From a virus: a stretch of DNA of 20,253 nucleotides. Location of the stretch: the IMG/VR virus record IMGVR_UViG_3300003690_000230, positions 1-20,253 of that record; one strand, written 5' to 3'. The notes under the pieces were generated by a model that made no database searches, was not told where the DNA came from, and saw only the letters and a list, made by a program, of their open reading frames with translations. Shown in pieces: positions 2 through 18,801 of the stretch (the first letter of the stretch is position 1; the number at the start of each line of letters is the position of its first letter). Both the position numbers and the translations under genes were made by a program.

Positions 2-3000
2 ATTCTTGAGTTATCCTTAGAGTCTGGGCTTAGTGATATCATTACTCAGGAAAGTATGGAGGCACCCACTCCACCTACGTTAACTCTAGTACCTACAGTA
101 GAAGAGAGCGCGGATGAGCTAGAAGCTAGACTAGCAGAAAAGGTTCCAAAGGATGGGATAGAAACTCTTAGAACTGCGCTTGATGAAGGAGCGGCTCAGC
201 TTACAGTATCTCATATTGGAGCCACTGAATTAGTGGGCGAGACTGATGACGCCCTACGCATTTTGGACATGAAAGACGATTTGGGTAAGAGGCTTGATGA
301 GGGAGGTTTTACAGGATTCCCATCTTCTAAACTTGCAGAAACTCAGATTAGTCTTGCTGAAGGTGAGAATTTCTTAGAGGGTGCTGGGCATGGAGCCGAC
401 ATATTTGTTTTACATCGTATTCCAAATGAAAGAACCGCTCAAACTGGAGAAGAATTTACTGGTCCAATAGCAGAGGATCATACACTTGAGAACTGGAGGG
501 GGGCTATACTTGATAGTCAGCCGAGTCTTGTTTATATATGGGGTGAAGGAGGTAGAGGTGATTTTACGGGATTCGATTTTAGTACTTTGCCTGGATATGA
601 GTTGGTCGGAAAAATACAGCAAGAAGGTGAAATGGGTTCTGGACAGTTTACTTTACTTAAACGAAAGGCTGAGCTAGAACTAGATGAATACGCTGAAATT
701 CAGTCAAGGATAGATCCAACGTTCGATGAGACGATAGATGAAGAAGTAGCTATTGATGTATCTGAGAACGTTATTCGTATCTCCGAGAGAGGAAAACAAA
801 AGACAGACGAGAAAACAAGTATAGATTTTATTCTCGAAAGTGAAAACCCAGCTGAACTTCATAGCAAGTTAAGTGAACCCCCCGCCGCAGGTGGCTATTC
901 AGTCGCTGAAGTTAGAAGTCTAGCAGCTAATATTAAAGCTGTGAATCCAGACTTTGAATACAACCCCAAAGCAAAGAAGGCAGACATTACCGCTTCCATA
1001 ATGGAGTGGTACACTACTCCTATGGAGGATGCTTATGTAAAGGAGGACTTGATTGAGACTGAGGAGAACGATGATGTTGTAGAGTCTAGAAGGCTAGATA
1101 GAACAGCAACCCTCCACTCTCCTAGACAAGCTGAGCAAGTAATTAGATCACAGTTCAGAGGAATCTTTGGGAAGAAAGCGGTTAGTAGATTTGAAGAGAT
1201 AAAGTTTATAAACTTTGTAGATAGCGCAACGGCAAAAGAAATGGGTGCTTCTGAAACAGCACAGGCTTTTGTCTCTAGAGGCACTGGGCAAATATACTTT
1301 ATATCAGATAAGATACCTTCAGACATGGGTGCCAAGGAGATGAGAGGTCTTATCTTCCACGAGATGGGTGTACACTTTGGAAGGGATGTGTTCAGCGGGA
1401 CTGAGTGGGATTCGGTTCTATTAGAAGTATACCGACTTAGCAAAAGCGGTGATGATATAGTTAATGCTGCTGTTGCTAGGGTAATGAGGGGATATAATTA
1501 TAAAGAATTTGATAGCGGTATTCCAGTAATAGGTGATACTCCTAGACAGCGCCATTCAATTAAAAGTAGAAGGCATTTTTGGGAAGAAGTTTTAGCCCAT
1601 GTTGTAGAGGTTAAACAACCAGTGCTAGATGCACCAGCAAGGAAGGGGCTAGTCCAAAAAATACGTGATGCATTTAAAACTTTCTTTACTAAAATCTCTA
1701 AGGCTTTAGGTGGTACGTTTACGGATAAAACTACGGGAGAGAGAGTAGAGATTCCTAATGTAACACTGGATGACGTTGTCAACTTAATTGGATATTCTAC
1801 TTGGCACTCTGGTATACAGGCTTTAGAAAGGCATGGTGATTCAAAACCCATGTCTAAGTTGCGCGATAGAAAGAGAAAGGAATTCCTTAAGGGTTCTAAG
1901 ATGCAAGAGCCTGTGTTTCATGGAACGCCAAATGATTGGAGTTCTCCTTTAATAGAAAGAACTCAATTAGGATTGCATGTTGGAACTTCTATTGCAGCAG
2001 TTAATATAGCAAAGGCTAGACACTTTAAGAATACTCCACCTATAGAAGAGCTTGATGATGTTCAACAAGAACTTGATAGCTATATTGATATCCCACCGTC
2101 TGGAGTTGTTAAAGCATGGAAGCCTGGATGGGAGAAACAAATTTCAAATAGAGATTTGGAAGACATATCTATTAGTTGGGACCCAGCTCTTGCATTAAAG
2201 AGAGCTTCTTTCTTAGAAGGGGATCAATGGAATGTTTTATTTGGGGATAAGGAAGCTGCTTTTACCGTGTTCAATAAGGGCACTCAAATATTACGAGGGT
2301 ATATAAATATACAAGATTCATTGCTTGTTGATGACCTAGGAAACTTTAGTGATTCAACTAGCTGGCTTACATTCGCCAATAAAAAAGTAAGAGGTCTGAC
2401 ATTTGAGGATGAAGAAAGAGCTATGTGGGTAGAAATTTCTGAGATGTCTACTGGCCATGCTCGTAGTAGAGTAAGGGCTCATAATGAAAACGATATAAGA
2501 GAGGTTTGGTCTATTGATGAGCAGTTCAGTAAGGAGCTACGAGCGCTTATTAAAAAGAATGGGTATGATTCTTTAGAATATATAAATGATGCTGAGGATA
2601 TAGGCAGTACAAGCTGGGTTCTTTTTGATGACAACCAATTCAAGTCAGTCTATGATCTGTCTTTTGATTCCGGTACTAGTATCTTTGCTACTAAGAAAGT
2701 TATAAAGCAATCCAATTCGTCTGAGATAGTAGAGTCTAGAAGGGTTGCGCGAGAAGCAACCAAAGAGGTTGTATACTCTAGGCTAGGAGAAGCTAAGGCC
2801 AGGTCCTTTATCAAAGGAATACAGAGAGCAATAGAACCTCTGATGGCTGTTGAGGGTTATGATCAATTAGAAACAACTAGGATGCTGACTAAGGGTAAGG
2901 TTGGAGAGTGGGCTAATACAGGAAGAATTATATTTGATATATTAAATGAGGCTACACCAACAGAGAAGAAGGCTATATACAAATACTTTACTACTAGGAA

Positions 3001-5185
3001 TGCTGATCCATCTAAACTACCTGACAGAAGGGTAAGGTTTGCGGAACAGAGAACTATTTTAAGGGGTACACGTCCTGGTGATACAAGAGTTACAAAGGAT
3101 GAGAGTATAAGAGCCAAGGTTGTTGAGACTAAAAAGCTTATAGCTAGTTTAGGAGATGACTTGGTTAAGACTGGTCTGATAACTCAAGAGCAGTACAATG
3201 AATGGAAGAACCAGTACTTGCCTAGAGTTTATATGGAGCATGTGATGGGTGGTAAGGATAGAATAGGTCTTGGCGGGTTAAGAACATCTAGTCTTACTTA
3301 TACTAAACATAGGAAGGATCATGAGAATTTTCTTAACGATGTTATATCAGGACGTATAGATGACCCAGGATTTCTTGCATCTAGGTATGTGACTATGGCC
3401 GGTAGTGATATGGCTATCATAAAGTACCTTGACTTTATAGCCAGTGATCCAGGAAATAATAACTGGGTTCTGCCCGGACAGATCATGGTCTTTAAAGGTA
3501 TGACTGGAACGTCGGATTATTTTAAAAGCTTAGCTAATGATATAAATCATAGGGCTAATTTAGGTGATAAGGTTTCTCCTGAGAGAGCAAAGCAAATGAG
3601 AGAATTAGCTATGGATATGAATGCTGTGGCTGACAAGGTAACACCAGATTTGCGTGGAGTAAATCTTAAAAGATATAGAAAGGTACCAGACTCTCCAAGG
3701 TATGGCGCTATGCGTGGGCTGTATGTGCAGAAAGATATTTGGAATGATATAAATGGTTTGGGTATAACTGCAGATCCATCATGGGCTTCTATCTTGAAGT
3801 GGAGTGGGAGAGTACAGACTACCTTTAAGTATACAAAAGTTCCTATGAATATTCCAACTCAAGTTAGGAATATAATCTCTAATTCTATACTTATGAATGT
3901 TTCTGGAACTAATTTCTTTAGGCTTCCTGGAGCAATTAGTAAGGCTATGCATGATGTAGTTAGTAATGGAAAATATATGCAGCTTGCTAGAAAGTATGGG
4001 CTTGAAACTACTACGTTTGCAGCTACTGAACTTGGTGCTATAGATAGAGAACTGGCTAAGGTTAAATCATCAGCCGATAGCTTTGATGGTATGTGGCAAA
4101 GATCAAAGATATTCTTTAATGATTATTTAGATGTTGGTGGTAGAGCATACCAGAAGACTGAGATATTGTTTAAGGTTGCTAAGATGATTGACCTTATGGA
4201 GAATCATGGAAAGACAGAAGCTGAAGCTGTGAAGCTAGCTAATGAAGCACTGCTTGATTATGGTAACGTTTCTCAAGCAGTAAGACTTCTAAGAACGATG
4301 CCGTTAGGTTCTCCATTCATTACCTTTAATGTTAAAGCGCTGGCTCAGATGGCAAGGAATGTAAAGCAACATCCTTTTGCTTCTCTTAAGTATGCAGCTA
4401 TACCTTACTTGTTCATGGAGATGTTCTTGTCACAGAATGATGATCTTGATGAGGATGATTGGGATGCTCTGATGGAGTTCCTGCCAGATTATATGGAGAC
4501 AGAGTTTAGTACTATGGTCTTTCCATATAAGAATGAGCAGGGGAAGTGGCAGGCTTGGGATGTTAGTTTCTTCTTACCGTGGGGAGCACACCTACATCTT
4601 GCTAAGAATATAGCTAAGGGAGAATTTGGAAAAGCTGTCTATGGAAATGTAGGAATGTTTGGTGGGCCAGCACAAATTCCTTTGGCTATTAGCGCGAACG
4701 AAGATCCGTTTACTAAGCAGCCTATATATAATGAGTTTGATCCTCCTATGCAAAGGTATGAAGATCTAATGATGTTTGTAGCTAGCTATATGATGCCTCC
4801 TATGCTGATTCCTAGAAATAGGGCCGGAGATATTGTTCGTGGTGGAGGACCCCTGATTAAAACAATGATGGCTGCTAATTTTATAGATGGTAATGTTGGT
4901 GCTGATGGGTTGCCTAGATATACAATGCCTAATGCATTGCTATCATGGGGTGGTGTGAGCGTACAACAATTGAGTGGGGTGAATGTTGCTAGGAGTTTGT
5001 ACTTCAAGCAAAGAGAATTGGATAAGATTCAATCAAGGATGCAAGAGATGATGAGTGACCCCGGTATATCACAAGAAAAAAGAGAGAGGCTTATGAATGA
5101 GTATAGGGAGCATTGGTTAAAAACTGTGGAAGAACATAGGAAGTGGGCTGAACATTTAAAGAGAGTGCAAAGGTTGTTTGAGTGA
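2..5185 (+). CDS. Giant phage polyvalent protein (5' partial): zincin-like, ART-like and LPD38-like regions
   Basis: The frame is open to the left edge, so the ATG at 56 is probably internal (18 codons precede it); an AGGAA lies just before that ATG, so a start there is not excluded. Counting from that ATG there are 1709 residues. Seen: H435-E-M-G-V-H440, a HExxxH site like those of zincin-type domains in polyvalent proteins; FHGT at 621-624, and around 850-880 a GYDSLEYIN...E...VLF...Q-F-K-S string, which matches the first and last motifs of polyvalent-protein ADP-ribosyltransferases; and a C-terminal third (about 1200-1709) with the helical pattern of LPD38, including ALLDYGNVSQ and a hydrophobic PYLFMEMFL stretch. 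Such proteins are usually packaged in the virion and ejected with the DNA, or carried by conjugative elements; packaging here is inferred. A VESRR linker occurs at 342-346 and again at 892-896. A 104-residue gene follows with a 4-base overlap. Domain edges are approximate. Confidence 0.85.
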   Translation: MLELSLESGLSDIITQESMEAPTPPTLTLVPTVEESADELEARLAEKVPKDGIETLRTALDEGAAQLTVSHIGATELVGETDDALRILDMKDDLGKRLDEGGFTGFPSSKLAETQISLAEGENFLEGAGHGADIFVLHRIPNERTAQTGEEFTGPIAEDHTLENWRGAILDSQPSLVYIWGEGGRGDFTGFDFSTLPGYELVGKIQQEGEMGSGQFTLLKRKAELELDEYAEIQSRIDPTFDETIDEEVAIDVSENVIRISERGKQKTDEKTSIDFILESENPAELHSKLSEPPAAGGYSVAEVRSLAANIKAVNPDFEYNPKAKKADITASIMEWYTTPMEDAYVKEDLIETEENDDVVESRRLDRTATLHSPRQAEQVIRSQFRGIFGKKAVSRFEEIKFINFVDSATAKEMGASETAQAFVSRGTGQIYFISDKIPSDMGAKEMRGLIFHEMGVHFGRDVFSGTEWDSVLLEVYRLSKSGDDIVNAAVARVMRGYNYKEFDSGIPVIGDTPRQRHSIKSRRHFWEEVLAHVVEVKQPVLDAPARKGLVQKIRDAFKTFFTKISKALGGTFTDKTTGERVEIPNVTLDDVVNLIGYSTWHSGIQALERHGDSKPMSKLRDRKRKEFLKGSKMQEPVFHGTPNDWSSPLIERTQLGLHVGTSIAAVNIAKARHFKNTPPIEELDDVQQELDSYIDIPPSGVVKAWKPGWEKQISNRDLEDISISWDPALALKRASFLEGDQWNVLFGDKEAAFTVFNKGTQILRGYINIQDSLLVDDLGNFSDSTSWLTFANKKVRGLTFEDEERAMWVEISEMSTGHARSRVRAHNENDIREVWSIDEQFSKELRALIKKNGYDSLEYINDAEDIGSTSWVLFDDNQFKSVYDLSFDSGTSIFATKKVIKQSNSSEIVESRRVAREATKEVVYSRLGEAKARSFIKGIQRAIEPLMAVEGYDQLETTRMLTKGKVGEWANTGRIIFDILNEATPTEKKAIYKYFTTRNADPSKLPDRRVRFAEQRTILRGTRPGDTRVTKDESIRAKVVETKKLIASLGDDLVKTGLITQEQYNEWKNQYLPRVYMEHVMGGKDRIGLGGLRTSSLTYTKHRKDHENFLNDVISGRIDDPGFLASRYVTMAGSDMAIIKYLDFIASDPGNNNWVLPGQIMVFKGMTGTSDYFKSLANDINHRANLGDKVSPERAKQMRELAMDMNAVADKVTPDLRGVNLKRYRKVPDSPRYGAMRGLYVQKDIWNDINGLGITADPSWASILKWSGRVQTTFKYTKVPMNIPTQVRNIISNSILMNVSGTNFFRLPGAISKAMHDVVSNGKYMQLARKYGLETTTFAATELGAIDRELAKVKSSADSFDGMWQRSKIFFNDYLDVGGRAYQKTEILFKVAKMIDLMENHGKTEAEAVKLANEALLDYGNVSQAVRLLRTMPLGSPFITFNVKALAQMARNVKQHPFASLKYAAIPYLFMEMFLSQNDDLDEDDWDALMEFLPDYMETEFSTMVFPYKNEQGKWQAWDVSFFLPWGAHLHLAKNIAKGEFGKAVYGNVGMFGGPAQIPLAISANEDPFTKQPIYNEFDPPMQRYEDLMMFVASYMMPPMLIPRNRAGDIVRGGGPLIKTMMAANFIDGNVGADGLPRYTMPNALLSWGGVSVQQLSGVNVARSLYFKQRELDKIQSRMQEMMSDPGISQEKRERLMNEYREHWLKTVEEHRKWAEHLKRVQRLFE
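1079..1093 (+). repeat. In-frame 15-bp direct repeat, copy 1 (encodes VESRR)
   Basis: GTAGAGTCTAGAAGG is identical to the copy at 2729-2743 and lies in the same reading frame. At protein level the match extends to VESRRLDRTAT here against VESRRVAREAT in the second copy (8 of 11 identical). It falls just before the zincin-like region of the giant protein. Confidence 0.8.
2729..2743 (+). repeat. In-frame 15-bp direct repeat, copy 2 (encodes VESRR)
   Basis: Identical 15-mer to 1079-1093. It falls just after the ADP-ribosyltransferase-like domain, so the two copies bracket the enzyme-like part of the protein. The repeat could be a linker, a processing site or a remnant of domain shuffling. Confidence 0.8.
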
Positions 5186-5689: not shown

Positions 5690-6486
5690 GCATATCTCCT
5701 TGTTAATTTACGTTGTGTTATTGAATTTATTTCGTCGTAGTATCCATCTCCATCTAATCCTTTAAGTAACACTACTCCTCTCCACCAATTGTATTCTGTA
5801 TCTCTACACCAGCTTTCAGAATAATGTGGATGAGAGTAGCACCCGGCAGATAGGCCAAATATTTTTTGACCATCTGGTCTTGTTTGTTCTGCGTGATTAT
5901 ACAAGTGTGAATGTCCTTGTACTGCTGAGCAGTGTAGTTTAGACACCAAATGAAAGCCTATATGTGTAGAGCTTATAGGCCTACCCGCTATACCGGAAGT
6001 AAAGTAATGTGAGAATATTATATTCTCTATTGAAAGACAGCTTTTAAATTGTGTAATCTTCCATCCAAACTTTTCATATTGTAAGTCCTTTATTCCGATA
6101 GCTCCTTCTAATTCTGGAGCTGAATTTATTGCACGATCTATTCTATCTTCATGATTTCCTAAACATAGGTGCAGTTTAGGTTTGTATTGTTTCTCCTTTC
6201 TCTTTCTTTTGTTATTGTTTAACCTCTTTATAGGTTCAAAGAGTTTCTCTTGTGCATCTATTACTGAGAGAATATCCTTTTTGTACCTTCTACCTTCAAA
6301 TCCTTTTGTTCCTTTATCATAAGAAGACAAGCTTGGCATATCAGCTAAGTCTCCTAAGCAAACTATTATTTCTGGTTGTTGTTCTACTATAAAATTACCA
6401 AGAGCTGAGAATCTTTTGTTGTCATACTCAGGTGCAGCATGGCAATCTGGGATTATCAGTAAGTCTTTTGGTTCTTTCTTTTTCAT
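5686..6486 (-). CDS. Calcineurin-like metallophosphoesterase
   Basis: 266 residues with the full ordered set of metallophosphoesterase motifs: D14-C-H16, G45-D46, G110-N111-H112-E113, H160 and G191-H-S-H194. These bind two metal ions in phosphodiesterases and phosphatases of this superfamily. There is no signal peptide or membrane segment, so it should act in the cytoplasm. The lineage (phosphatase, nuclease or cyclic-nucleotide phosphodiesterase) cannot be settled from motifs. The ATG overlaps the stop of the HicA-like gene by 4 bases, and its own stop overlaps the Lar-like start by 4 bases. A basic insert (about residues 90-103, KRKRKEKQ) separates the GD and GNHE motifs and could contact nucleic acid. 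Confidence 0.9.
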   Translation of the reverse strand: MKKKEPKDLLIIPDCHAAPEYDNKRFSALGNFIVEQQPEIIVCLGDLADMPSLSSYDKGTKGFEGRRYKKDILSVIDAQEKLFEPIKRLNNNKRKRKEKQYKPKLHLCLGNHEDRIDRAINSAPELEGAIGIKDLQYEKFGWKITQFKSCLSIENIIFSHYFTSGIAGRPISSTHIGFHLVSKLHCSAVQGHSHLYNHAEQTRPDGQKIFGLSAGCYSHPHYSESWCRDTEYNWWRGVVLLKGLDGDGYYDEINSITQRKLTRRYA

Positions 6487-6662
6487 AGTAATGTTTCCAT
6501 AGTATGTTTAACTATACTTTGTGGGTACTCCTTGCGAATGCTTAAAGTTACAATCTTATTATTAAGAGAAACAACGTGATGGTTATTGCTTGACCTACGA
6601 ATAGTTGCGCCCTTTTTCTTTAATGCTTTTAAGAAGTCTTTACTTTTGATTAGGTGTTTCAT
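6483..6662 (-). CDS. HicA-like small RNA-binding/toxin-fold protein
   Basis: I chose the ATG at 6662, which overlaps the reductase stop as ATGA, over two upstream in-frame ATGs lying within the reductase gene. The 59 residues fit the HicA dsRBD-like fold: a first helix FLKALKKKGA, a strand with the central His pair (NNHHVV, His28-29, where HicA has its catalytic His), a second strand NKIVTLSI, and a C-terminal helix. HicA proteins are mRNA-cleaving toxins normally paired with a HicB antitoxin; no HicB-like gene is adjacent. The Gly-Ser preceding the His in classical HicA is Asn-Asn here, so activity is uncertain and it may be a repurposed RNA-binding protein. Confidence 0.6.
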   Translation of the reverse strand: MKHLIKSKDFLKALKKKGATIRRSSNNHHVVSLNNKIVTLSIRKEYPQSIVKHTMETLL

Positions 6663-7990
6663 ATTGAACATACCCCTGTCATGCATTGTTCCTCACTGTT
6701 GTCTTCATATATAACTCCTCTCTTTGAGTGAGCTTCTTCATAATCACACGCTGTTATAGGCTGTCCTCCTCTACTACCTTCTGGGTATAGTGTTAGACCT
6801 CTTAATCCATGTGCATACTTTGCTACTATGGTGGAGAATTTCTTTATACTATCTTCATTATTAAGTTCACTACCCCATGTTGGAAGATTAAGTGTGCTGC
6901 TTATAGCGTGGTCTACATATTTTTGTAGTTCATATTGAAACTTAATTCTTCTTTCTGGATCACCAGCCAAATCAATTGCTGATTCTATATCAGTTGGTTT
7001 AATACCTTTGTCTATTAAGGTTTGTGCAGCTCCATCTACTACGAACTGGTACTTCCATTTAGTTCCTTCTTGTAAGTATCTTCTTTTATACGAGACTGCG
7101 TAAATGGGTTCCACGCCAGAGGTAGTGCCCGCTAGGATTGAGATGCTACCTGTCGGAGCTATAGCTCTGTATCCTTTGGGTCTGCTTAAGAAGAACCTAT
7201 CACAGTGTTCATTGGCAGATTTCTCAGACTCATCTCTGTAAACTTTAAGCCATCTCTTTAGCTCATCGTTCATCTCATATTTATATCCCCCCTTAAGTAA
7301 CCACTCATGCATTCCCATTAGACCTAAACCTAATCTTCTATTCTTCTGTCTAACTTCCTCTACTTTTTCATAGGGTAAGTGTGCTCGTATTGTTCCGCAT
7401 ACTAGGAACTTAGAAGCTACGTTTACTATATCCTTAAATTCTTCTAGAGTTTCTATTCTACCCATGTTGATGCTTCCTAAATTACAGACATCTGAGTCAT
7501 CACTCGATGTTATTTCTGTGCAGGCGTTACGTAATGTTTCGTCTTGCTTCTCTCCAAAGTTAAAACTAAATCCTGGTTCACCTGTCATTAAGGCTTGCTT
7601 ACAATTTTCTATAAATATATCTGGAGTTCTATTTCCGCTTAGCTCCTTTAAAAATTCATCATCATAGTTTAATGATATGTTCATCATATCTAATGGGGCT
7701 GGGTAATTAAAGTTATTTCTTTTAACTTCTGCTAAGGAAAGATCTGTACCTGGCACCTTAAAATCATGCCAATTTTTTATCTTCAGAAAGTCTGAAGCAT
7801 CCTCGTGTTGCCAATTAAGGGAACCATACATAGCTGATCGCCTCGATCCTCCTTGCATAACATTGCGGCCCACTTCGTTGATAACATTCAGGAGCGGAAG
7901 TGGCCCTGAAGCAACTCCACCTGTCCTTCGTAGTGGCCTCCCACTCGGGCGAGCAATGCTTACATCTATACCAATACCACCTCCTGTCAT
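6659..7990 (-). CDS. nrdJ: Class II (B12-dependent) ribonucleotide reductase, C-terminal part of a broken gene
   Basis: 443 residues from an ATG at 7990 that overlaps the stop of the N-terminal part (TGATG); a TTG at 8008 would add LLSCL-type sequence upstream. It starts at the conserved MTGGGIGIDVS loop. N155-A-C157-T-E159 supplies the thiyl-radical Cys and its Asn/Glu partners, C169 (CNLGSINM) is the second redox Cys, the PTGSISILAGTTSGVEP segment is typical of NrdJ, and a Cys pair (C436, C441) closes the tail. The enzyme makes deoxyribonucleotides using adenosylcobalamin. The fragment cannot be a complete enzyme because the first redox Cys sits in the preceding frame. About 20 residues that homologues carry between the two parts appear to be missing. 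Confidence 0.85.
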   Translation of the reverse strand: MTGGGIGIDVSIARPSGRPLRRTGGVASGPLPLLNVINEVGRNVMQGGSRRSAMYGSLNWQHEDASDFLKIKNWHDFKVPGTDLSLAEVKRNNFNYPAPLDMMNISLNYDDEFLKELSGNRTPDIFIENCKQALMTGEPGFSFNFGEKQDETLRNACTEITSSDDSDVCNLGSINMGRIETLEEFKDIVNVASKFLVCGTIRAHLPYEKVEEVRQKNRRLGLGLMGMHEWLLKGGYKYEMNDELKRWLKVYRDESEKSANEHCDRFFLSRPKGYRAIAPTGSISILAGTTSGVEPIYAVSYKRRYLQEGTKWKYQFVVDGAAQTLIDKGIKPTDIESAIDLAGDPERRIKFQYELQKYVDHAISSTLNLPTWGSELNNEDSIKKFSTIVAKYAHGLRGLTLYPEGSRGGQPITACDYEEAHSKRGVIYEDNSEEQCMTGVCSI

Positions 7991-8286
7991 CAAGCATGAC
8001 AATAACAATTATTCCAGTAGCTTGCATCTCTTCCAGAGTAGTATATATATCTACCACCAGGCAGAAACTTAAGTTCTGCTATTATCTTTATTAAATAATC
8101 TCTATCTGATTTAGACATGATAGGCATGTCGGTTCCATTACGTGTACCACAAACATCATTAACTATTGTATGTGTTCTATCTCTCCATGTTTCAAATGTG
8201 TTAGAGGCATACTTATTTCTGAATGTTGTTGATCCTAATTCTGTATTAAATTCGCTCATCATGTTGTTCCAAGTTTGGTGTTTCAT
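7990..8286 (-). CDS. nrdJ: Class II ribonucleotide reductase, N-terminal part of a broken gene
   Basis: 98 residues holding the usual start of phage NrdJ proteins: FETWRDRTHTIV, then FLPGGRYIYYSGR, then WNNC94, which carries the first Cys of the redox pair. The frame ends two residues later in tandem TGA codons, far short of a complete barrel. The sequence resumes in another frame at SCLMTGGGIG, only a few bases on. In intact relatives, as I remember them, about 20 residues containing an EDTRE-W segment join NNCY to SCLMTGGG; they are absent here. The start overlaps the end of the dUTPase-like gene by 41 bases. It is either a pseudogene fragment or one subunit of a split reductase. Confidence 0.8.
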   Translation of the reverse strand: MKHQTWNNMMSEFNTELGSTTFRNKYASNTFETWRDRTHTIVNDVCGTRNGTDMPIMSKSDRDYLIKIIAELKFLPGGRYIYYSGRDASYWNNCYCHA

Positions 8287-10051: not shown

Positions 10052-10266
10052 TATTTAAAATCCCCCCAATAATCTTCTCGATCATATCCTTTAAGGTCAC
10101 ATATCTCATGTATTAAATCATCAACCTCATGACAAGTATCTGCCATAGCTGAACCAACCTCTAGTACTGATTTAATTACTACGTCAGTAGAATTAATTAA
10201 TTTTAATACTAGCACATCATATTCAGTCGGTTCCTTTTTTGCTTTTACTGTTTTCTTTGCCGTCAT
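10051..10266 (-). CDS. Small unrecognised protein in the recombination block
   Basis: 71 residues: a Lys-rich N-terminus (MTAKKTVKAKKEPTEYD), then a likely amphipathic helical body with an acidic C-terminus (DLIHEICDLKGYDREDYWG). The start is well supported by AAGGAG about 7 bases upstream, although this puts it 44 bases inside the annealase gene in another frame. Its stop overlaps the exonuclease start. It could be an accessory of the annealase/exonuclease pair, from position only. Confidence 0.65.
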   Translation of the reverse strand: MTAKKTVKAKKEPTEYDVLVLKLINSTDVVIKSVLEVGSAMADTCHEVDDLIHEICDLKGYDREDYWGDFK

Positions 10267-10729
10267 CGTTAGTCTCCTTTTTATGTAGTTGAACTACTGA
10301 AGCTTTATCTCTTTCCTCAAGCAGAGCATCATACCCTTCTGGTGTAGCCCAGGATGCTGGGTTTCTGTTACCATCAAATGCTTTGGGGTGATATAAATAA
10401 CGTCCTATTCCCCAAGGAACAGCTGCCCTTACGAGTGCCTTACTTAGACCGCCTTTCTCTGGCTCAATATTCGTGTCACCTGATCCATCTGCTTTGGAAA
10501 TCCATTCATCTTCTATCTTACAGGCTATAGTGCAAACCATTCTTTCGCCTATCCATTCAAAGCCTGCTTGCCAACCAGCAATCCCGAATACTGCATCTAA
10601 TCTATTCATTACATCTCTAGCATCTATGTGTGCTAATTCTTTTCCCTTGAATCCTGGTATCCATTTTATTTGGTTGACTGGATACGGTCGTTTAAGTTTC
10701 TTCTCTAAATCTTTTATGTAATTATTCAT
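10223..10729 (-). CDS. Rad52/Rad22-type single-strand annealing protein
   Basis: 168 residues. The N-terminal 125 carry the Rad52-family pattern: DARDVMNRLDAVFGIAGWQ, a beta sheet through MVCTIACKIEDEW, then a GLSKALVRAAVPWGIGRYLY segment, matching the helix with the K-A-x-(K/R)-R-A-a...WGIGRYLY signature. Family members form rings that anneal complementary single strands. The tail (residues 130-168) is charged and disordered. The exonuclease, ssb and NinB-like genes are close by. The start overlaps the preceding 51-residue gene by 8 bases. Confidence 0.85.
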   Translation of the reverse strand: MNNYIKDLEKKLKRPYPVNQIKWIPGFKGKELAHIDARDVMNRLDAVFGIAGWQAGFEWIGERMVCTIACKIEDEWISKADGSGDTNIEPEKGGLSKALVRAAVPWGIGRYLYHPKAFDGNRNPASWATPEGYDALLEERDKASVVQLHKKETNDDGKENSKSKKGTD

Positions 10730-10877
10730 CTTGTAACTCTCTTTCTTTCTTCTCTTTCTTTTCTAAACTATCTAACCATTCTTCATACTCTCTTTCGTAT
10801 TGCTCTTTTTCAGAGTCTTCCATCTGTTGTTGAGAGTCGTCATCATCCGGTAAATAATTCATTTTATAATCAGACAT
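10722..10877 (-). CDS. Very small acidic, helical protein (51 aa)
   Basis: Found by reading the gap between the annealase and NinB-like genes. An ATG at 10877 lies 8 bases inside the NinB-like gene, with GGAGAAAGG just upstream; its TAA overlaps the annealase start by 8 bases. The product has an Asp tetrad near residue 11, then an uninterrupted charged stretch rich in Glu and Lys (residues 20-51) that should be one long helix or coiled coil. The tight fit at both ends is the main argument that it is real. No family recognised. Confidence 0.6.
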   Translation of the reverse strand: MSDYKMNYLPDDDDSQQQMEDSEKEQYEREYEEWLDSLEKKEKKERELQDE

Positions 10878-11271
10878 ATCCTTTCTCCAGTTCCGAGGGA
10901 TAATATATCCCTGCTTGTATTAAGACTGCTTCAACTTTATCCATGTATTCTCCAAACTCTGCTACTGTTAGACTTGATGTTTGTATAGGAACTTCACGCG
11001 TCTCTCCTTTAAGGCTAGTAACTTCCTGCATACCTAAAACTTCTATTGTCATTATAGTATGTAGTTCGTTGATAGTATATCCAGATTCATTTGATGCTTG
11101 TCTTATCATATACCAATATCTATTGTTCTGATCTACTGATCTCTGATTTTTATTACTGTATGGTCGAACTATAACCTCTATCTTTACATTTGTCAAGATC
11201 AAATTATCAATGAAACTTACACAATCTTTTTTAGATTCTGCGTTTTCTATCTTAAACTTCTTAGTTTTCAT
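10870..11271 (-). CDS. ninB: NinB-like recombination mediator
   Basis: 133 residues. The central string N-Q-R-S-V-D-Q-N-N-R-Y-W-Y matches the NinB hallmark (RS-x-x-QN-x-x-YW), preceded by the short strand IEVIVRPY and followed by helices with ELHTIM and a late SLTVAEFGEYMD-x-V segment. Lambda NinB (Orf) binds single-stranded DNA and helps strand exchange in the Red pathway. Its place beside an annealase, exonuclease and HNH (NinG-like role) genes repeats the lambda logic. Overall similarity outside the hallmark is weak. A candidate promoter lies about 30 bases upstream, within the previous gene. Confidence 0.7.
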   Translation of the reverse strand: MKTKKFKIENAESKKDCVSFIDNLILTNVKIEVIVRPYSNKNQRSVDQNNRYWYMIRQASNESGYTINELHTIMTIEVLGMQEVTSLKGETREVPIQTSSLTVAEFGEYMDKVEAVLIQAGIYYPSELEKGYV

Positions 11272-11283
11272 TTAATAGTCCTC

Positions 11284-11553
11284 TTACTTAAAACTACCTT
11301 CTATTATACCACACTCGAATGCATGTCCTATAGTTTGTAGGCACCACCTTAGTTGAGTCTCCTTATCTATAGCACCACTATGACATTCTTGGTGATGTTC
11401 ATAACATACCGGAAGGGTAAAATAATCTGGTGCCTTCTTACCCATACCAGTTCCAAGAGCTAGTATCCTAAGATGATGGGCTTGTGTATATTGATAACCA
11501 CAGTAAATACATGGCTGTTCTGATACCCACTGCAAATATTTTTTTGATTTCAT
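11284..11553 (-). CDS. HNH-type nuclease (DUF968/Ref/NinG-like class)
   Basis: Counting from the ATG at 11553 (ATGA overlap with the previous stop) there are 89 residues; an in-frame ATG at 11592 would add 13. Seen: C15-x-x-C18, A25-H26-H27, the GTGMGKKAPDYFTLPVC strip, then H53-H54 and H58. This Cys2 plus AHH...D...P-(L/V)-C-x-x-HH-x-x-x-H arrangement is that of small phage HNH nucleases involved in recombination (DUF968, Ref, NinG-like). The enzyme should cut DNA using a His/metal site. Position next to the NinB-like gene supports a branch-cutting or recombination role rather than homing. Confidence 0.75.
   Translation of the reverse strand: MKSKKYLQWVSEQPCIYCGYQYTQAHHLRILALGTGMGKKAPDYFTLPVCYEHHQECHSGAIDKETQLRWCLQTIGHAFECGIIEGSFK
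11303..11311 (-). promoter_or_regulatory. Candidate extended -10 promoter ahead of the NinB-like gene
   Basis: Minus strand reads TGTGGTATAATAGA, containing a perfect extended -10 (TGn-TATAAT). The NinB-like start is 32 bases downstream of the element, a sensible leader with a GAGGA site. No good -35 is seen at 17 bases. The same 14 bases recur at 14588-14601. It is inside the last codons of the HNH gene, so coding chance is possible. Confidence 0.35.
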
Positions 11554-12092
11554 CTTATTCTTTTGAATGCTCTGTGTAGTTCCATCTCCCATTCTTGTGT
11601 CGTTGCCATAAGAGTATTAAAATAATTATATTTAATATGTCTTTGAAATCTACTCAGCATAGAAGTACGATGATCCTCTATTCCATATATATATCTAGCC
11701 CTAGCGCTATCACTCATTGATCTGGTGCCAACACCTAAACATACATCACATTTATATATTTTATCTTGTACTATTAACTGCTTTCTTCCATTACACTTGG
11801 GGCATACAGCAGGGCTTAACGATTCTTCCAGTGCTAAGTTAACTATACTATATATATCTTTTCTTGTCAAGCTTTTATTCCATTTAGCTTTTAAGGCGCA
11901 GCTTAACAGACTTCTTAAAACATGTGGCCTTTGGCTATACTCCATAGAATATTTAAGTCTAGCATATCTAGACGCACCATTACTAACGGTTGCCAAAATC
12001 ATACACACATCTGTCCAAGGAACTCTATTGCTCGGCCCCCAAATACTGGGAGACTTAACCGTAAGAGACTTCAGCGATTCTAGGCCTGACAT
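11550..12092 (-). CDS. Zinc-binding antitermination protein Q-like
   Basis: 180 residues. A central C97-P-K-C100-NG...C115-D-V-C118-LGVGTR forms a DnaJ-like zinc finger, followed by ARARYIYGIEDHRTSMLSRF, the arrangement seen in lambdoid phage Q-type antiterminators of the zinc-finger class. Such proteins bind RNA polymerase at the late promoter and suppress termination. The N-terminal half (helical, Ser and Arg rich) is not distinctive. The gene lies within the early operon, as q does among the nin genes of lambda. The ATG at 12092 lies 38 bases inside the upstream gene. The assignment is by pattern; a general Zn-binding phage protein is the alternative. Confidence 0.55.
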   Translation of the reverse strand: MSGLESLKSLTVKSPSIWGPSNRVPWTDVCMILATVSNGASRYARLKYSMEYSQRPHVLRSLLSCALKAKWNKSLTRKDIYSIVNLALEESLSPAVCPKCNGRKQLIVQDKIYKCDVCLGVGTRSMSDSARARYIYGIEDHRTSMLSRFQRHIKYNYFNTLMATTQEWEMELHRAFKRIR

Positions 12093-12282
12093 CTTTGTAT
12101 ATTTCCTTATATATTTTTATTGTTGGGTTGTTATCTCCTCTTACTACACCGAACTCGACATAATTTTTAAACATTGCACAGGCCACCTTATTATCAGAGC
12201 ATTTTTCAAACCACAAACACGGTGTACATGGTGGTTCTTCGCTCTTGATAGCCCTAAGTATATTAAATATTGGTCTATCCAT
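12055..12282 (-). CDS. Small Cys-rich phage protein
   Basis: 75 residues. Residues 19-40 hold P-C-T-P-C-LWFEK-C and A-C-AMFKNYV, a four-Cys set (CxxCx5Cx5C) that probably binds zinc or forms a compact knuckle; this kind of small protein recurs in phages without an assigned role. The start is firm: AAGGAGAAC precedes the ATG, which lies 8 bases inside the resolvase-like gene. The 3' end overlaps the Q-like gene by 38 bases. Confidence 0.7.
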   Translation of the reverse strand: MDRPIFNILRAIKSEEPPCTPCLWFEKCSDNKVACAMFKNYVEFGVVRGDNNPTIKIYKEIYKDVRPRIAEVSYG

Positions 12283-12601
12283 TGTTCTCCTTCTTTAATT
12301 TATCCATAAAATCCTTTGCTCTAAATATTATTAATGTATCTTCAAATGAAGAACCCTTTTCTTTTAAGAATACCACTGGTGTCTTACCGTTTCTTGATGA
12401 AGCAACTGCTTGAGACATGGCATCCTTAATCCATAAGGGTATTTGTTTTCTATACTTACATTCAATAGAAAGATACTCGCTTGTTACATCTGGTACGCTA
12501 CCCCTAACTCTACCAGTCACAGGAATTCTAATAGAGTGATCCCCCAGCTCGCTTAAAAAAGCACCGACTGACCTTTCAAATTTTTTCCATGTCTTATCCA
12601 T
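12275..12601 (-). CDS. PD-(D/E)XK nuclease, phage Holliday-junction-resolvase-like
   Basis: I chose the ATG at 12601, which overlaps the helicase stop by 8 bases and gives the expected MDKTWKKFER opening; an ATG at 12634 would add 11 residues. 108 residues. Seen: an IPVTGR strand, D38, E47-C-K49, then a helix with Q64 (AMSQAVA), followed by TPVVFLKEKG and a final IIFRAKDF strand/helix. The D...ExK...Q core is the PD-(D/E)XK catalytic site as in archaeal Hjc-like and phage resolvase-like proteins. It may resolve branches formed by the annealing system or replication; the true substrate is unknown. Confidence 0.75.
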   Translation of the reverse strand: MDKTWKKFERSVGAFLSELGDHSIRIPVTGRVRGSVPDVTSEYLSIECKYRKQIPLWIKDAMSQAVASSRNGKTPVVFLKEKGSSFEDTLIIFRAKDFMDKLKKENNG

Positions 12602-14360
12602 TGTAAATTTGAGGGGGTATTTCTTTTGTAGCATTAAGTGGTAAATGATACGTGCCCATTCTCCAATTATATGTTAACTCTCCAATACCTATCTTACCAT
12701 CCTGTCTAAATCTAATCTTTTGTACATGAACCTCCACCAAACACCCTTCTTCTTTTGCTAAGTCTCTCCAAATTGTTATACAATTATCAGACTTGTCTCT
12801 CCATCTAGCTGAACCACTTATATCATAAGGTGTAGGTATAGGAATCTTTCCTGACTTATCTCTATAAAGTTTAGCCGGGTGTGCTATTACCCATATATGT
12901 ATACCATAACGTCTACCAAATTGTCTTATTCTTTTTAAGGCTACAGAAATATATTCTGTTTCTGTTTGGTTGTTATCTCTCATGTGTTCAAGTTCATTCC
13001 AAGGGTCTATAACTAAACCACGTATACCTTTAGTAAGAACCAGGCGCTTAGCGGCTTCTAAAATTACATCTATTGACCACTCCTTATCATCACTAGGAAG
13101 TATCCAAGTAAAGTGTTTAGTGAGCCAACTCTTTCCTTTAACAAGATCCTCTTTTGACATTCGAGGAGTGGGCCCATCCATAAATGGTTGCCCTATATAT
13201 TTTTCTAATACTCTAGCCATATGATCTTCAAGTGGTTGATTCTCTGGTGAGAACACAGCGAAATTCCAACCATGATTCTTGGCTATGTTTACCATCACTG
13301 CATCCATCCAATTAGATTTACCACTGCTTGGTATACCTGTAACTACAGTAAAAGCTCCCGCTCTTACCAGATAATAAGGATCAATTGTACTCCATCCTGT
13401 ACTCACACCCCTATCCACACCATTATCATATAATCTGTCGATTGATTCTGTGAGGTTGTCGGCATCATAAGTTCCCGCTATTGGGTATGGCTTAGCGTGT
13501 GAGATACACTCAGACAGTACAGTTTTTCCGTACTTAACTAGAACATCGTTAGCATCTTTACATCCTTCAGGCCATACAACTTTATGGCATTTATCTTTAC
13601 CTAATCTCCTAGATAATTCTTCTTCCAGTTTATTACCGGGACCATCATTGTCAACTGCTATAATAATTCTTTCTACATTCTTAAACTTTTCGGAGTGTAG
13701 CCAAGGATCATTTAGGTAATCAAACTTAGAAGAATAGTCGTCGCTGTTAACAGGAGGAGCACCGTCAGGCACACTCAAGCAAGTTCTAATACCTGCTTCC
13801 CATAAAGAAAGTTTATCAATTTCTCCTTCAACTATTGCAACATTAATATTCTCACCTTCTATATCATCTATCCCATAGAAACATCGTTGTGCCCCTGCTT
13901 CTAATCTGAAATTTTTCTTACCATCACGATATTTAACATTGATTAATTCTCCATTCTTAAAATAGGGAAAGGCAATAGCCATAGTAAAGTCTTCTTCTTG
14001 TGGCATGTATACTTTCCTCTGTCCAATATGATTTTCTTCTAATGTTGTTTGGCTTATCCCCCTATCAGAAAACCATTTAAGTATGGACGGTTTAATAGAT
14101 GATGGCGGAACAGGTTCAGGCTTAACATACTTAGGCTTACGCCAGTGTAATGCTAACGGTCCAGCATTATCTTTACCATTAGCTAAGGTTCCTGCCCATC
14201 CACAATGGTGGCACAACCATATACCTTCATCTATATTAACTGATAGGCAGGCAGCCTTCTTCTTCCTTCTCTGAGAAGAACAACTAGGACATTGAGTATG
14301 GGTCTGACCGGACGTTGCTCTCGCTGTCAGTTTAATACCAAAGTCCTCAAATGTTTTCAT
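12594..14360 (-). CDS. DNA primase-helicase (T7 gp4-like)
   Basis: 588 residues with all modules of a fused phage primase-helicase. Zinc-binding domain: C24, C27, C50, C53. TOPRIM core: VEGE180 (E179 region) and D237-N-D239. Helicase: Walker A G342-IPSSGKS349, Walker B VIDPW with D452, sensor H494 in IWVIAHP, then SGSARWRDKSDN near the arginine-finger region. It unwinds the fork and lays primers. T7 gp4 is similar in size (566 residues). The ATG overlaps the preceding stop (ATGA), with GGGGGA upstream. A separate DNA polymerase is not in the window. It sets the replication core of the operon. Confidence 0.95.
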   Translation of the reverse strand: MKTFEDFGIKLTARATSGQTHTQCPSCSSQRRKKKAACLSVNIDEGIWLCHHCGWAGTLANGKDNAGPLALHWRKPKYVKPEPVPPSSIKPSILKWFSDRGISQTTLEENHIGQRKVYMPQEEDFTMAIAFPYFKNGELINVKYRDGKKNFRLEAGAQRCFYGIDDIEGENINVAIVEGEIDKLSLWEAGIRTCLSVPDGAPPVNSDDYSSKFDYLNDPWLHSEKFKNVERIIIAVDNDGPGNKLEEELSRRLGKDKCHKVVWPEGCKDANDVLVKYGKTVLSECISHAKPYPIAGTYDADNLTESIDRLYDNGVDRGVSTGWSTIDPYYLVRAGAFTVVTGIPSSGKSNWMDAVMVNIAKNHGWNFAVFSPENQPLEDHMARVLEKYIGQPFMDGPTPRMSKEDLVKGKSWLTKHFTWILPSDDKEWSIDVILEAAKRLVLTKGIRGLVIDPWNELEHMRDNNQTETEYISVALKRIRQFGRRYGIHIWVIAHPAKLYRDKSGKIPIPTPYDISGSARWRDKSDNCITIWRDLAKEEGCLVEVHVQKIRFRQDGKIGIGELTYNWRMGTYHLPLNATKEIPPQIYNG

Positions 14361-16633: not shown

Positions 16634-17776
16634 TTAATCTATCTCAATTATCTCACCAAAGTGACAGACATCCCTATAATACTCTGGATTGGAGCCATAT
16701 GCAACCCATATTACAGGATAATCTGGCTCGTATTCTGGAAAAGAACCATACATATCTGTAAGATATACAAATAAAGTAGGGTCTTCCTTGTGTTCTTCTA
16801 CCCATTCAAAGGCAGGCTCGAACGCTGTACCACCACCACCCTTACTATCTATGACTATTGGTAAGTCATCAGGGGTGTAGTATTGTACATTATTAACAGC
16901 ACTATCAATATAAAGTACGATGCATTCATCTATATCACACTCCTCAAATATTGAAGTAAGTTCACCACCAAATTGCGGTAGATATTGGACTGCTGATCCA
17001 CTATCATCTACTGCTACTATAAGTTTGCTAATGCCATGTAATTTTTTAGTAGACGGTAGATAAATACCCTCATCAATGTATCTTCTATTAGGCTTGCTCC
17101 AACTGGAATCATACCTAACTAGGTCATTAGCGTACATCCTTAGTTTCTCTCCCCATGATACCTTCGGTTCAAGAAAAGAATCTATTAAAGTCTGAAATTC
17201 TCCGGGCAATGTGCCTCTTAACTTGCAAGCCTGAGCAGCTGATACTAACCGCTCCTTCCACTCATTCTCTATCTCTTGCTTCTCAGAAGATGACAACTCA
17301 CCATCCTCAAAGTACCCAGTGCCGCCTATGTCTCCTAATATAACCTCTCCACCCTCACCCTTACCATGACCCTCACCTAACTCATCTAACAGGTCATTAT
17401 AAATTGCATCAGCACTCCAATCCTTATACTTCTCATCTACCAATGCCTTCTCTGGAAGTTTAACACCATACTTTATCAGCAATGGATTGATAGCATAATC
17501 TCCTGCCATATTCCATATCAAAGCATTCCTTGTTCCCCTTCTAGTTATGTGGAAAAATGCAGGGTGCATCACCTCGTGTAGCAGAACACCCTTAGTTTCC
17601 TCAGTCGTTAACTTCTCAGCATATTCTTCGTTATAAAATATTGAAATCCCATTAGTAGCAAAGGTTTCAATGTCATTCCTTGGCTTCATCTTCATTGGAC
17701 ACAGTAGTGTACCAAAGAAAGGATGATCAAGCAATGCGTGTGCTCTCGCTGCTTGGAGTTTTCTATCTAGTTGCAT
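16634..17776 (-). CDS. DUF2201-type putative metallopeptidase with C-terminal VWA domain
   Basis: 380 residues. N-terminal domain: H67-E-V-M-H71 (HExxH), with NMAGDYAIN (D93) at the position where a third ligand is expected. A Gly/Glu/Asp-rich loop at 133-160 follows. C-terminal VWA-like domain: D257-D-S259-G-S261 for the metal-ion adhesion site, T317 in GGGGTAF, and D341 in LTDMYGS, so all MIDAS residues are present. DUF2201 proteins are usually partners of MoxR ATPases. Likely job: a regulated protease or remodeller, driven by the ATPase upstream. The start follows GGAG; the gap to the ATPase stop is 11 bases. Confidence 0.88.
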   Translation of the reverse strand: MQLDRKLQAARAHALLDHPFFGTLLCPMKMKPRNDIETFATNGISIFYNEEYAEKLTTEETKGVLLHEVMHPAFFHITRRGTRNALIWNMAGDYAINPLLIKYGVKLPEKALVDEKYKDWSADAIYNDLLDELGEGHGKGEGGEVILGDIGGTGYFEDGELSSSEKQEIENEWKERLVSAAQACKLRGTLPGEFQTLIDSFLEPKVSWGEKLRMYANDLVRYDSSWSKPNRRYIDEGIYLPSTKKLHGISKLIVAVDDSGSAVQYLPQFGGELTSIFEECDIDECIVLYIDSAVNNVQYYTPDDLPIVIDSKGGGGTAFEPAFEWVEEHKEDPTLFVYLTDMYGSFPEYEPDYPVIWVAYGSNPEYYRDVCHFGEIIEID

Positions 17777-17787
17777 ATAGTTTCTCC

Positions 17788-18801
17788 TTATCCTAGTAGG
17801 ATATCTGTATTCTTCATGGCGAAATCAGTGAAGGCCTTAGTCTCTGTTAGTTTCGGCTTGTTCTCAGACGATTCCTTCACTACCATTATACCATACTCGG
17901 CAGGCAATCTACTCATGTATTTTAAGATAGGCTCATAATTTTCAGGTGTAGCATGGAACGCTAGACTACAGCCTATTGCATACATAGCACTAGGATTCTC
18001 AGGAACTCTAGCTGTGCCCGGACTCTTTATACAATCATCAGGATCAGGCACTTCAGATGCTACCTTCTCATGTGATCTAAACGCTACTGCTGATGCCTCA
18101 CCTACATCTGCTGCATATAGATTAAACCTAAGGTGGTCAGGTGGATTGAGTTTGCGTGTATTACTCACCTTCTCCCAACTTCTAGGCGTAGGCCATGCCC
18201 AATTCCCATCACCCTTATCAGGCCTCATGTGCATATACTTACCATGCAGATGGAGGAACGACGTAACCATAGGGTCAATACCAATCTTAATAAAGTATTT
18301 TTCTAACCCCTTGGGGTCTAACTCAACCTCATAGTGTGAGAATCTATCCTGTAATGCGTAGGATAATCCCCTGTTAATACCACCATGCTCTCGTCTATTA
18401 CCTATACCAATTATGATCCAACCCTCTGGGAATTTATAATCTCCCAGTCTTTTCTCGTGAAACAACTGTTGAAACGATGCCATTACGGATATCATAGTCA
18501 CATCAAGCAACTCATCCATGATGAATGCTCCCCTCTTACCATCTCTATCAACTCTCGGTAGAAAGTCAGGGATTGCCCACCTAGAAAGCAACTCTTCTCT
18601 ATACGGTACACCGCGCACATCAGCATCACCCATTTGAGTAGCCCTACAGTCTATGGCATTACCTAAGTATTCCATAGCCCAAGCATTACTCATCTCTGTC
18701 TTACCTATACCAGACTCTCCGGTTATTAACACAGAATTACCATTACCCGTAGCGAAAGTCAGGTACTCAGGCAGATCAGTGACTGCTATTTTTGCTGTCA
18801 T
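17788..18801 (-). CDS. MoxR-family AAA+ ATPase
   Basis: 337 residues. Walker A G28-ESGIGKT35, Walker B IMD96-E97, sensor 1 around N135 (GIGNRREHGG), and an arginine-finger-type R153 in QDRF. The residues RATQMGDADVRGVPY and the NR...GG...L-x-x-R-F run fit the MoxR branch. MoxR ATPases form rings and hand energy to VWA partner proteins, as in RavA-ViaA and CobS-CobT. The partner is almost certainly the next gene. GGAGC stands before the ATG. The C-terminal half (about 200-337) should be the lid and a family-specific helical region. Confidence 0.9.
   Translation of the reverse strand: MTAKIAVTDLPEYLTFATGNGNSVLITGESGIGKTEMSNAWAMEYLGNAIDCRATQMGDADVRGVPYREELLSRWAIPDFLPRVDRDGKRGAFIMDELLDVTMISVMASFQQLFHEKRLGDYKFPEGWIIIGIGNRREHGGINRGLSYALQDRFSHYEVELDPKGLEKYFIKIGIDPMVTSFLHLHGKYMHMRPDKGDGNWAWPTPRSWEKVSNTRKLNPPDHLRFNLYAADVGEASAVAFRSHEKVASEVPDPDDCIKSPGTARVPENPSAMYAIGCSLAFHATPENYEPILKYMSRLPAEYGIMVVKESSENKPKLTETKAFTDFAMKNTDILLG
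17789..17803. repeat. Perfect 15-base palindrome at the ATPase/metallopeptidase junction
   Basis: TATCCTA-G-TAGGATA, with 7-base arms around one base, spans the last codons of the ATPase gene and ends beside the AAGGAG site of the metallopeptidase gene. In RNA it would be a short 5-bp hairpin next to that site. It may be an operator, a translational element, or chance. Confidence 0.5.

Follow-up and report, generated by a model that had tools for sequence, protein, structure and literature searches.

The nrdD gene of Aeromonas phage phiAS4 is a phage ribonucleotide reductase (RNR) gene in pieces, and no intein was found there (PMC3653736). When it is compared with the intact gene of phage 25, which is 97% identical, gaps are seen at the break points (PMC3653736). 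In addition, the nrdA gene of Campylobacter phage Cpt10 is degenerate and has been described as a pseudogene (PMC3653736). Meanwhile, two polypeptides, NrdA-a and NrdA-b, replace one catalytic chain in Aeromonas phage Aeh1 (PMC2988022). A class II reductase in two chains is also known, NrdJa/NrdJb, in which the chains are divided C-terminal to the catalytic barrel, all of which belongs to NrdJa (PMC9669993). Furthermore, the gene studied here is present in intact form, as an nrdJ-like reductase, in phages from IMG/VR (L001-L080, 67-95% identical over the large part) and in Roseobacter phages CRP-212 and CRP-3, which are its nearest cultured relatives (58-59%).

The sequence analysed, hereafter the window, is virus record IMGVR_UViG_3300003690_000230 with its 20,253 bases, and the phage is of marine type. 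The window carries the nrdJ-like gene as two fragments on the minus strand. The N-terminal fragment (7990..8286, minus strand) is a frame of 98 residues, which ends with GRDASYWNNCYCHA and is followed by TGA TGA. Its homology ends at the 95th residue, it matches phrog_367 (ribonucleotide reductase, E = 7.9e-05), and its identity to residues 1-95 of the L001 frame is about 87%. The C-terminal fragment (6659..8008, minus strand) is an open frame of 449 residues that begins with LLLSCLMTGGGIG, contains SCLMTGGGIGIDVS and ends with CMTGVCSI. Its homology starts at SCLMTGGGIG, Pfam PF02867 matches it (E = 1.3e-48), and its nearest relative shares 95% identity with it across 447 residues. Thus, with 95% identity for the large frame and about 87% for the small one, the resemblance to the relatives is not by chance. 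The reading frame of the second fragment is offset by -1 from that of the first. The tandem in-frame TGA TGA is located at 7987..7992 (minus strand), and its first TGA (7992-7990) overlaps, as TGATG, an in-frame ATG of the second frame (7990-7988), which is a possible re-start. In the related phage contigs, the two frames together correspond to a single uninterrupted protein of about 552 residues. The first-pass annotation had described a small frame ending in WNNCY-CHA and tandem TGA, with SCLMTGGGIG resuming in another frame, and the minus-strand translation confirmed this description.

To compare the break with related genes, the large frame was used as a query in a scan of viral contigs. 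This yielded 80 loci with 67-95% identity, 77 of which cover the site. In all 77, the segment NNCYLLRLMEDTREEWSGVTQRAMSCLMTGGGIG, or one close to it, lies between NNCY and SCLM in a single frame. The Roseobacter phage CRP-212 is likewise in a single frame through the site, and two distant copies (74%) came from genome contigs. The deletion junction is placed at 8001..8002 (minus strand), where 58 bases that are present in all relatives examined are absent between these two bases. In the nucleotide alignment, window positions 8002 and 8001 correspond to relative bases 2943 and 3002 in L002, L007, L008, L010 and L013. The absent stretch equals residues 87-106 of L002, LLRLEEDTREEWSGVTQRAM, and subtracting the two spare bases from its 60 gives 58. 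The earlier estimate of about 20 residues with an EDTRE-W segment, about 58 bases and two spare bases was therefore correct in all its figures. The same annotation had said that closest relatives which all lack the segment would count against its view, and the result was the opposite (77/77 have it).

The shortened spacing (WNNCY, then CLMTGGGIG within 30 bases) had no other case in 2.9 million viral contigs, among which near-identical records may be masked. Similarly, the exact junction sequence had no match in the viral contig scan, from which the window's own or near-identical records may be omitted. Because of this possible omission, these results indicate that the arrangement is no shared lineage feature, and they do not imply its absence from the population. 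We also considered relocation of the segment within the window, and it was rejected, as a 29-base probe spanning the segment start found no match in the window with up to 3 mismatches.

The lost residues are highly conserved. Across 20 aligned homologues, the most distant at 65% identity, eight of them (L87, L88, D93, R95, E96, W98, R104 and A105) are invariant, and several further lost positions are nearly so. In the alignment with Thermotoga maritima NrdJ (1xje), the lost stretch comprises helix alphaA and, directly following the redox cysteine, the last part of barrel strand betaA. In Escherichia coli, Asp232 stands seven residues after the betaA cysteine Cys225. This Asp232 contacts the ribose of the specificity effector (PMC4728125), and the E-D pair of the relatives appears, through the 1xje alignment, to occupy the matching place after the betaA cysteine. 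In addition, the subunits of dimeric RNRs meet at helices alphaA and alphaB, which is where the specificity site is located (PMC9531940). By homology, the lost helix alphaA would provide the dimer interface and the contact with the specificity effector. The predicted structure of an intact relative, which is poor (mean pLDDT 43), shows a helix at 95-109 between strands 85-89 and 114-118; this predicted helix agrees with the homology-based placement, in a model too poor to rely on.

The catalytic cysteines, which are identical in the IMG/VR relatives, are all present in the window, and they are divided between the two frames. The codon of the betaA redox cysteine (NNCY; 8005..8007, minus strand) is in the N-terminal fragment, aligns with a Cys of 1xje and corresponds to the invariant C85. 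The other frame retains intact the codon of the putative thiyl-radical cysteine (RNACTEI; 7520..7522, minus strand; invariant C266), that of the second cysteine of the redox pair (DVCNLGS; 7484..7486, minus strand; invariant C278) and the C-terminal pair CMTGVC (6668..6685, minus strand; invariant C545 and C550). However, a complete ten-stranded barrel with helix alphaA is not encoded, residues 87-106 being absent and the frame shifted. The best NCBIfam match of the C-terminal fragment was TIGR02504 NrdJ_Z (E = 1.4e-54), with 185.7 bits against a cut-off of 399.95, and the intact relative L002 is also under this cut-off (206 bits). Furthermore, a Pfam scan of the 18 other proteins of the window, neighbours included, found no ferritin-like reductase beta subunit. 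Judged from the protein sequences, class II (adenosylcobalamin-dependent) NrdJ is the best assignment; it is not a proved one. The match to the best NrdJ model is below its cut-off, for the intact relatives too.

Could the two fragments still work together? A working class II reductase of two chains, made by coupled re-initiation at TGATG, would have to do without helix alphaA, the usual site of the dimer interface and of the specificity site. The TGATG overlap, the two open frames, the presence of all catalytic cysteines across both chains and the constraint on the large part are in agreement with such an enzyme, and the split NrdA of phage Aeh1 is fully functional (PMC2988022). However, eight invariant residues are gone together with the dimer and effector helix, and no lost conserved segment is described for splits of the NrdJa/NrdJb and Aeh1 types. 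In addition, no second case was seen in the 77 relatives or in the pattern scan, where near-identical records may be masked. The overlap itself, which the first-pass annotation had taken as allowing coupled translation, does exist, but the letters TGATGAC are found at the same place in the majority of the aligned close relatives with an intact gene. Thus, TGATG simply results from the conserved L-M-T-G codons and gives no evidence for evolved coupling. No Shine-Dalgarno-like stretch was found upstream of the ATG at 7990. Moreover, the constraint on the large half may predate the lesion, and the small half is if anything less constrained (5 synonymous against 7 nonsynonymous changes, see below). 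We therefore reject the two-chain enzyme as a likely reading, because eight invariant residues are missing and no lineage has the arrangement; we consider a working enzyme of this kind very unlikely.

Two further explanations of this locus are more improbable still. The -1 offset between the frames might suggest that programmed -1 frameshifting at the junction rescues a single protein, but this product would still be without about 19 conserved residues. The small frame has no slippery heptamer (X XXY YYZ) in its zero frame, and on that ground we rejected frameshifting, which has next to no chance of being right. The other explanation is the remnant of an imprecisely lost intron or intein, and among phage nucleotide-metabolism genes the RNR genes are indeed the commonest hosts of self-splicing introns (PMC3653736). 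Nevertheless, none of the 77 relatives has an insertion at the site and the junction contains no foreign letters, so that this origin was rejected as well and is hardly credible.

The rest of the gene and of the window was then compared with the relatives. The window was searched with the proteins of L001 and with those of six stretches taken from four longer related contigs, and nrdJ was the only window gene that the relatives' proteins matched in two frames, the other genes being matched in a single frame. Within the two nrdJ halves, no further stop or frame shift was found. Identity to the closest relative, L001, is 89% across 6 kb. Apart from the deletion, a single base at 5970 is the sole out-of-frame genic indel relative to it, and this one breaks the gene in L001 and not in the window. 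The gene concerned, a neighbour of nrdJ, encodes a calcineurin-like phosphoesterase; it has lost one base in L001 and is intact in the window. In L019, a one-base difference from L003 at about 2230 breaks the nrdJ frame; this contig contains Ns, and a sequence error is probable.

Changes on the window branch since its split from L001 were polarised with L002 by a simple assignment of codon sites, with small counts and with unread bases in L001. In the large part, 18 changes were synonymous and 6 nonsynonymous, far fewer nonsynonymous ones than neutrality would give (p ~2e-8); the corresponding counts for the small part were 5 and 7 (p = 0.07 against the large part). The 18:6 constraint is what would be expected if the gene worked until recently. 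Strong past constraint on the large half, together with the lack of any other lesion in either half, means that the lesion is recent or artefactual. On this sequence evidence, our reading is that nrdJ was probably functional for most of the time since the split from L001 and that the lesion is recent or not real. An old pseudogene under relaxed selection was also considered and set aside, as the difference between 5:7 in the small half and 18:6 in the large half (p = 0.07) is not decisive. Similarly, we rejected strain recombination or a chimera at the junction, because over 6 kb the sliding identity to L001 moves between 80 and 98%, and no step in it is specific to the junction.

Other genes of the window were noted as follows. 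A small frame at 6483-6686 (minus strand) overlaps the 3' end of nrdJ; it has a weak HicA-toxin-like match (E = 4.9e-05, below the Pfam cut-off) and is conserved in L001, L089 and L090. A recombination cluster occupies 10223-12634 (minus strand), with genes for a Rad52/Erf-like annealing protein, a NinB-like protein, an HNH (DUF968) protein and a Holliday-junction-resolvase-like protein. At 16634-18801 (minus strand), a DUF2201 metallopeptidase/VWA-like protein adjoins an AAA ATPase-like protein, and the pair is kept in L090. At the left end, a frame (2-5185, plus strand) continues beyond the window; it counts at least 1,727 residues, is oriented against the replication genes, and had no Pfam match and one weak PHROG match of unknown function.

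Is the deletion present in the phage itself? A fault of assembly, of scaffolding or gap closing, or of whole-genome amplification might have dropped 58 bases where ends were joined, and the real phage would then have an intact nrdJ. The deletion is found in one metagenomic record, being absent from the 77 relatives and from the collection-wide pattern scan, and this is how a fault would look. Frame faults do occur in such records, as in the nrdJ of L019 and the phosphoesterase of L001, both of which have one-base breaks and unread bases. Furthermore, both fragments otherwise resemble a working gene without further damage. However, the window has no N at all, and a clean loss of 58 bases is unlike the one-base slips of L001 and L019. 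At the deletion ends, the relatives have no repeat able to mislead a k-mer assembler, with one or two shared bases at most, and the identity to L001 shows no step specific to the junction. We give such a fault a little less than an even chance.

An ordinary phage class-II-like nrdJ, broken by a real and recent out-of-frame deletion of 58 bp, is the reading that we favour by a small degree of belief. Taken together, a sporadically broken nrdJ is the most likely state of the locus, with about half of our expectation on a real recent deletion and somewhat less on a fault of assembly or amplification. We infer that the deletion exists in the phage, kills the enzyme and is recent. A single event would have removed almost the entire helix alphaA along with the end of strand betaA. 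Translation of the first frame would halt three codons past the junction, leaving an N-terminal fragment probably incapable of forming the barrel. The large fragment, if it is made at all by re-initiation at the ATG at 7990, would be without the betaA cysteine and one of the two dimer helices. Reductase activity would not be expected, and the phage variant would depend on the host's own reductase. The first-pass annotation had left the choice between a dead gene and an unusual two-chain enzyme. Its description of a broken class-II-like gene with a barrel deletion beside the redox cysteine stands, and the choice falls on the dead gene, or on the artefact that it had also named.

Compared with the known systems, the locus is closest to the intact nrdJ-like genes, and the closest relatives have neighbouring genes in common with the window. 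The difference is that these relatives contain the 58-bp segment and read in one frame. The parallel with NrdJa/NrdJb, which had been drawn earlier, is weak, because the barrel stays whole in NrdJa (PMC9669993). The Aeh1 split differs in that it arose by insertion of mobE, concerns a class I enzyme, has no conserved segment reported lost and yields shown activity (PMC2988022). A functional split reductase would keep all conserved residues in its two chains together, and here eight invariant ones are missing; it would also be conserved in a lineage, and here the split is found in none of the 77 relatives and nowhere else in the pattern scan (near-identical records may be masked). Activity of the two chains would imply that a reductase can dispense with the helix responsible for its dimer and specificity site, and only in that case would the locus be of great importance. 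If the deletion is an artefact, it matters for annotation only. Meanwhile, a frame broken relative to intact close relatives is the mark of a phage RNR pseudogene, and the window has it. The nrdD of phiAS4 belongs to class III and is in three pieces that overlap or are separated differently, and the break in the nrdA of Cpt10 came from inserted genes and not from a deletion. If real, the deletion warns against taking adjacent fragments of metagenomic contigs for split enzymes, and it is a further example, comparable to phiAS4 and Cpt10, of a phage reductase gene lost by a single lesion.
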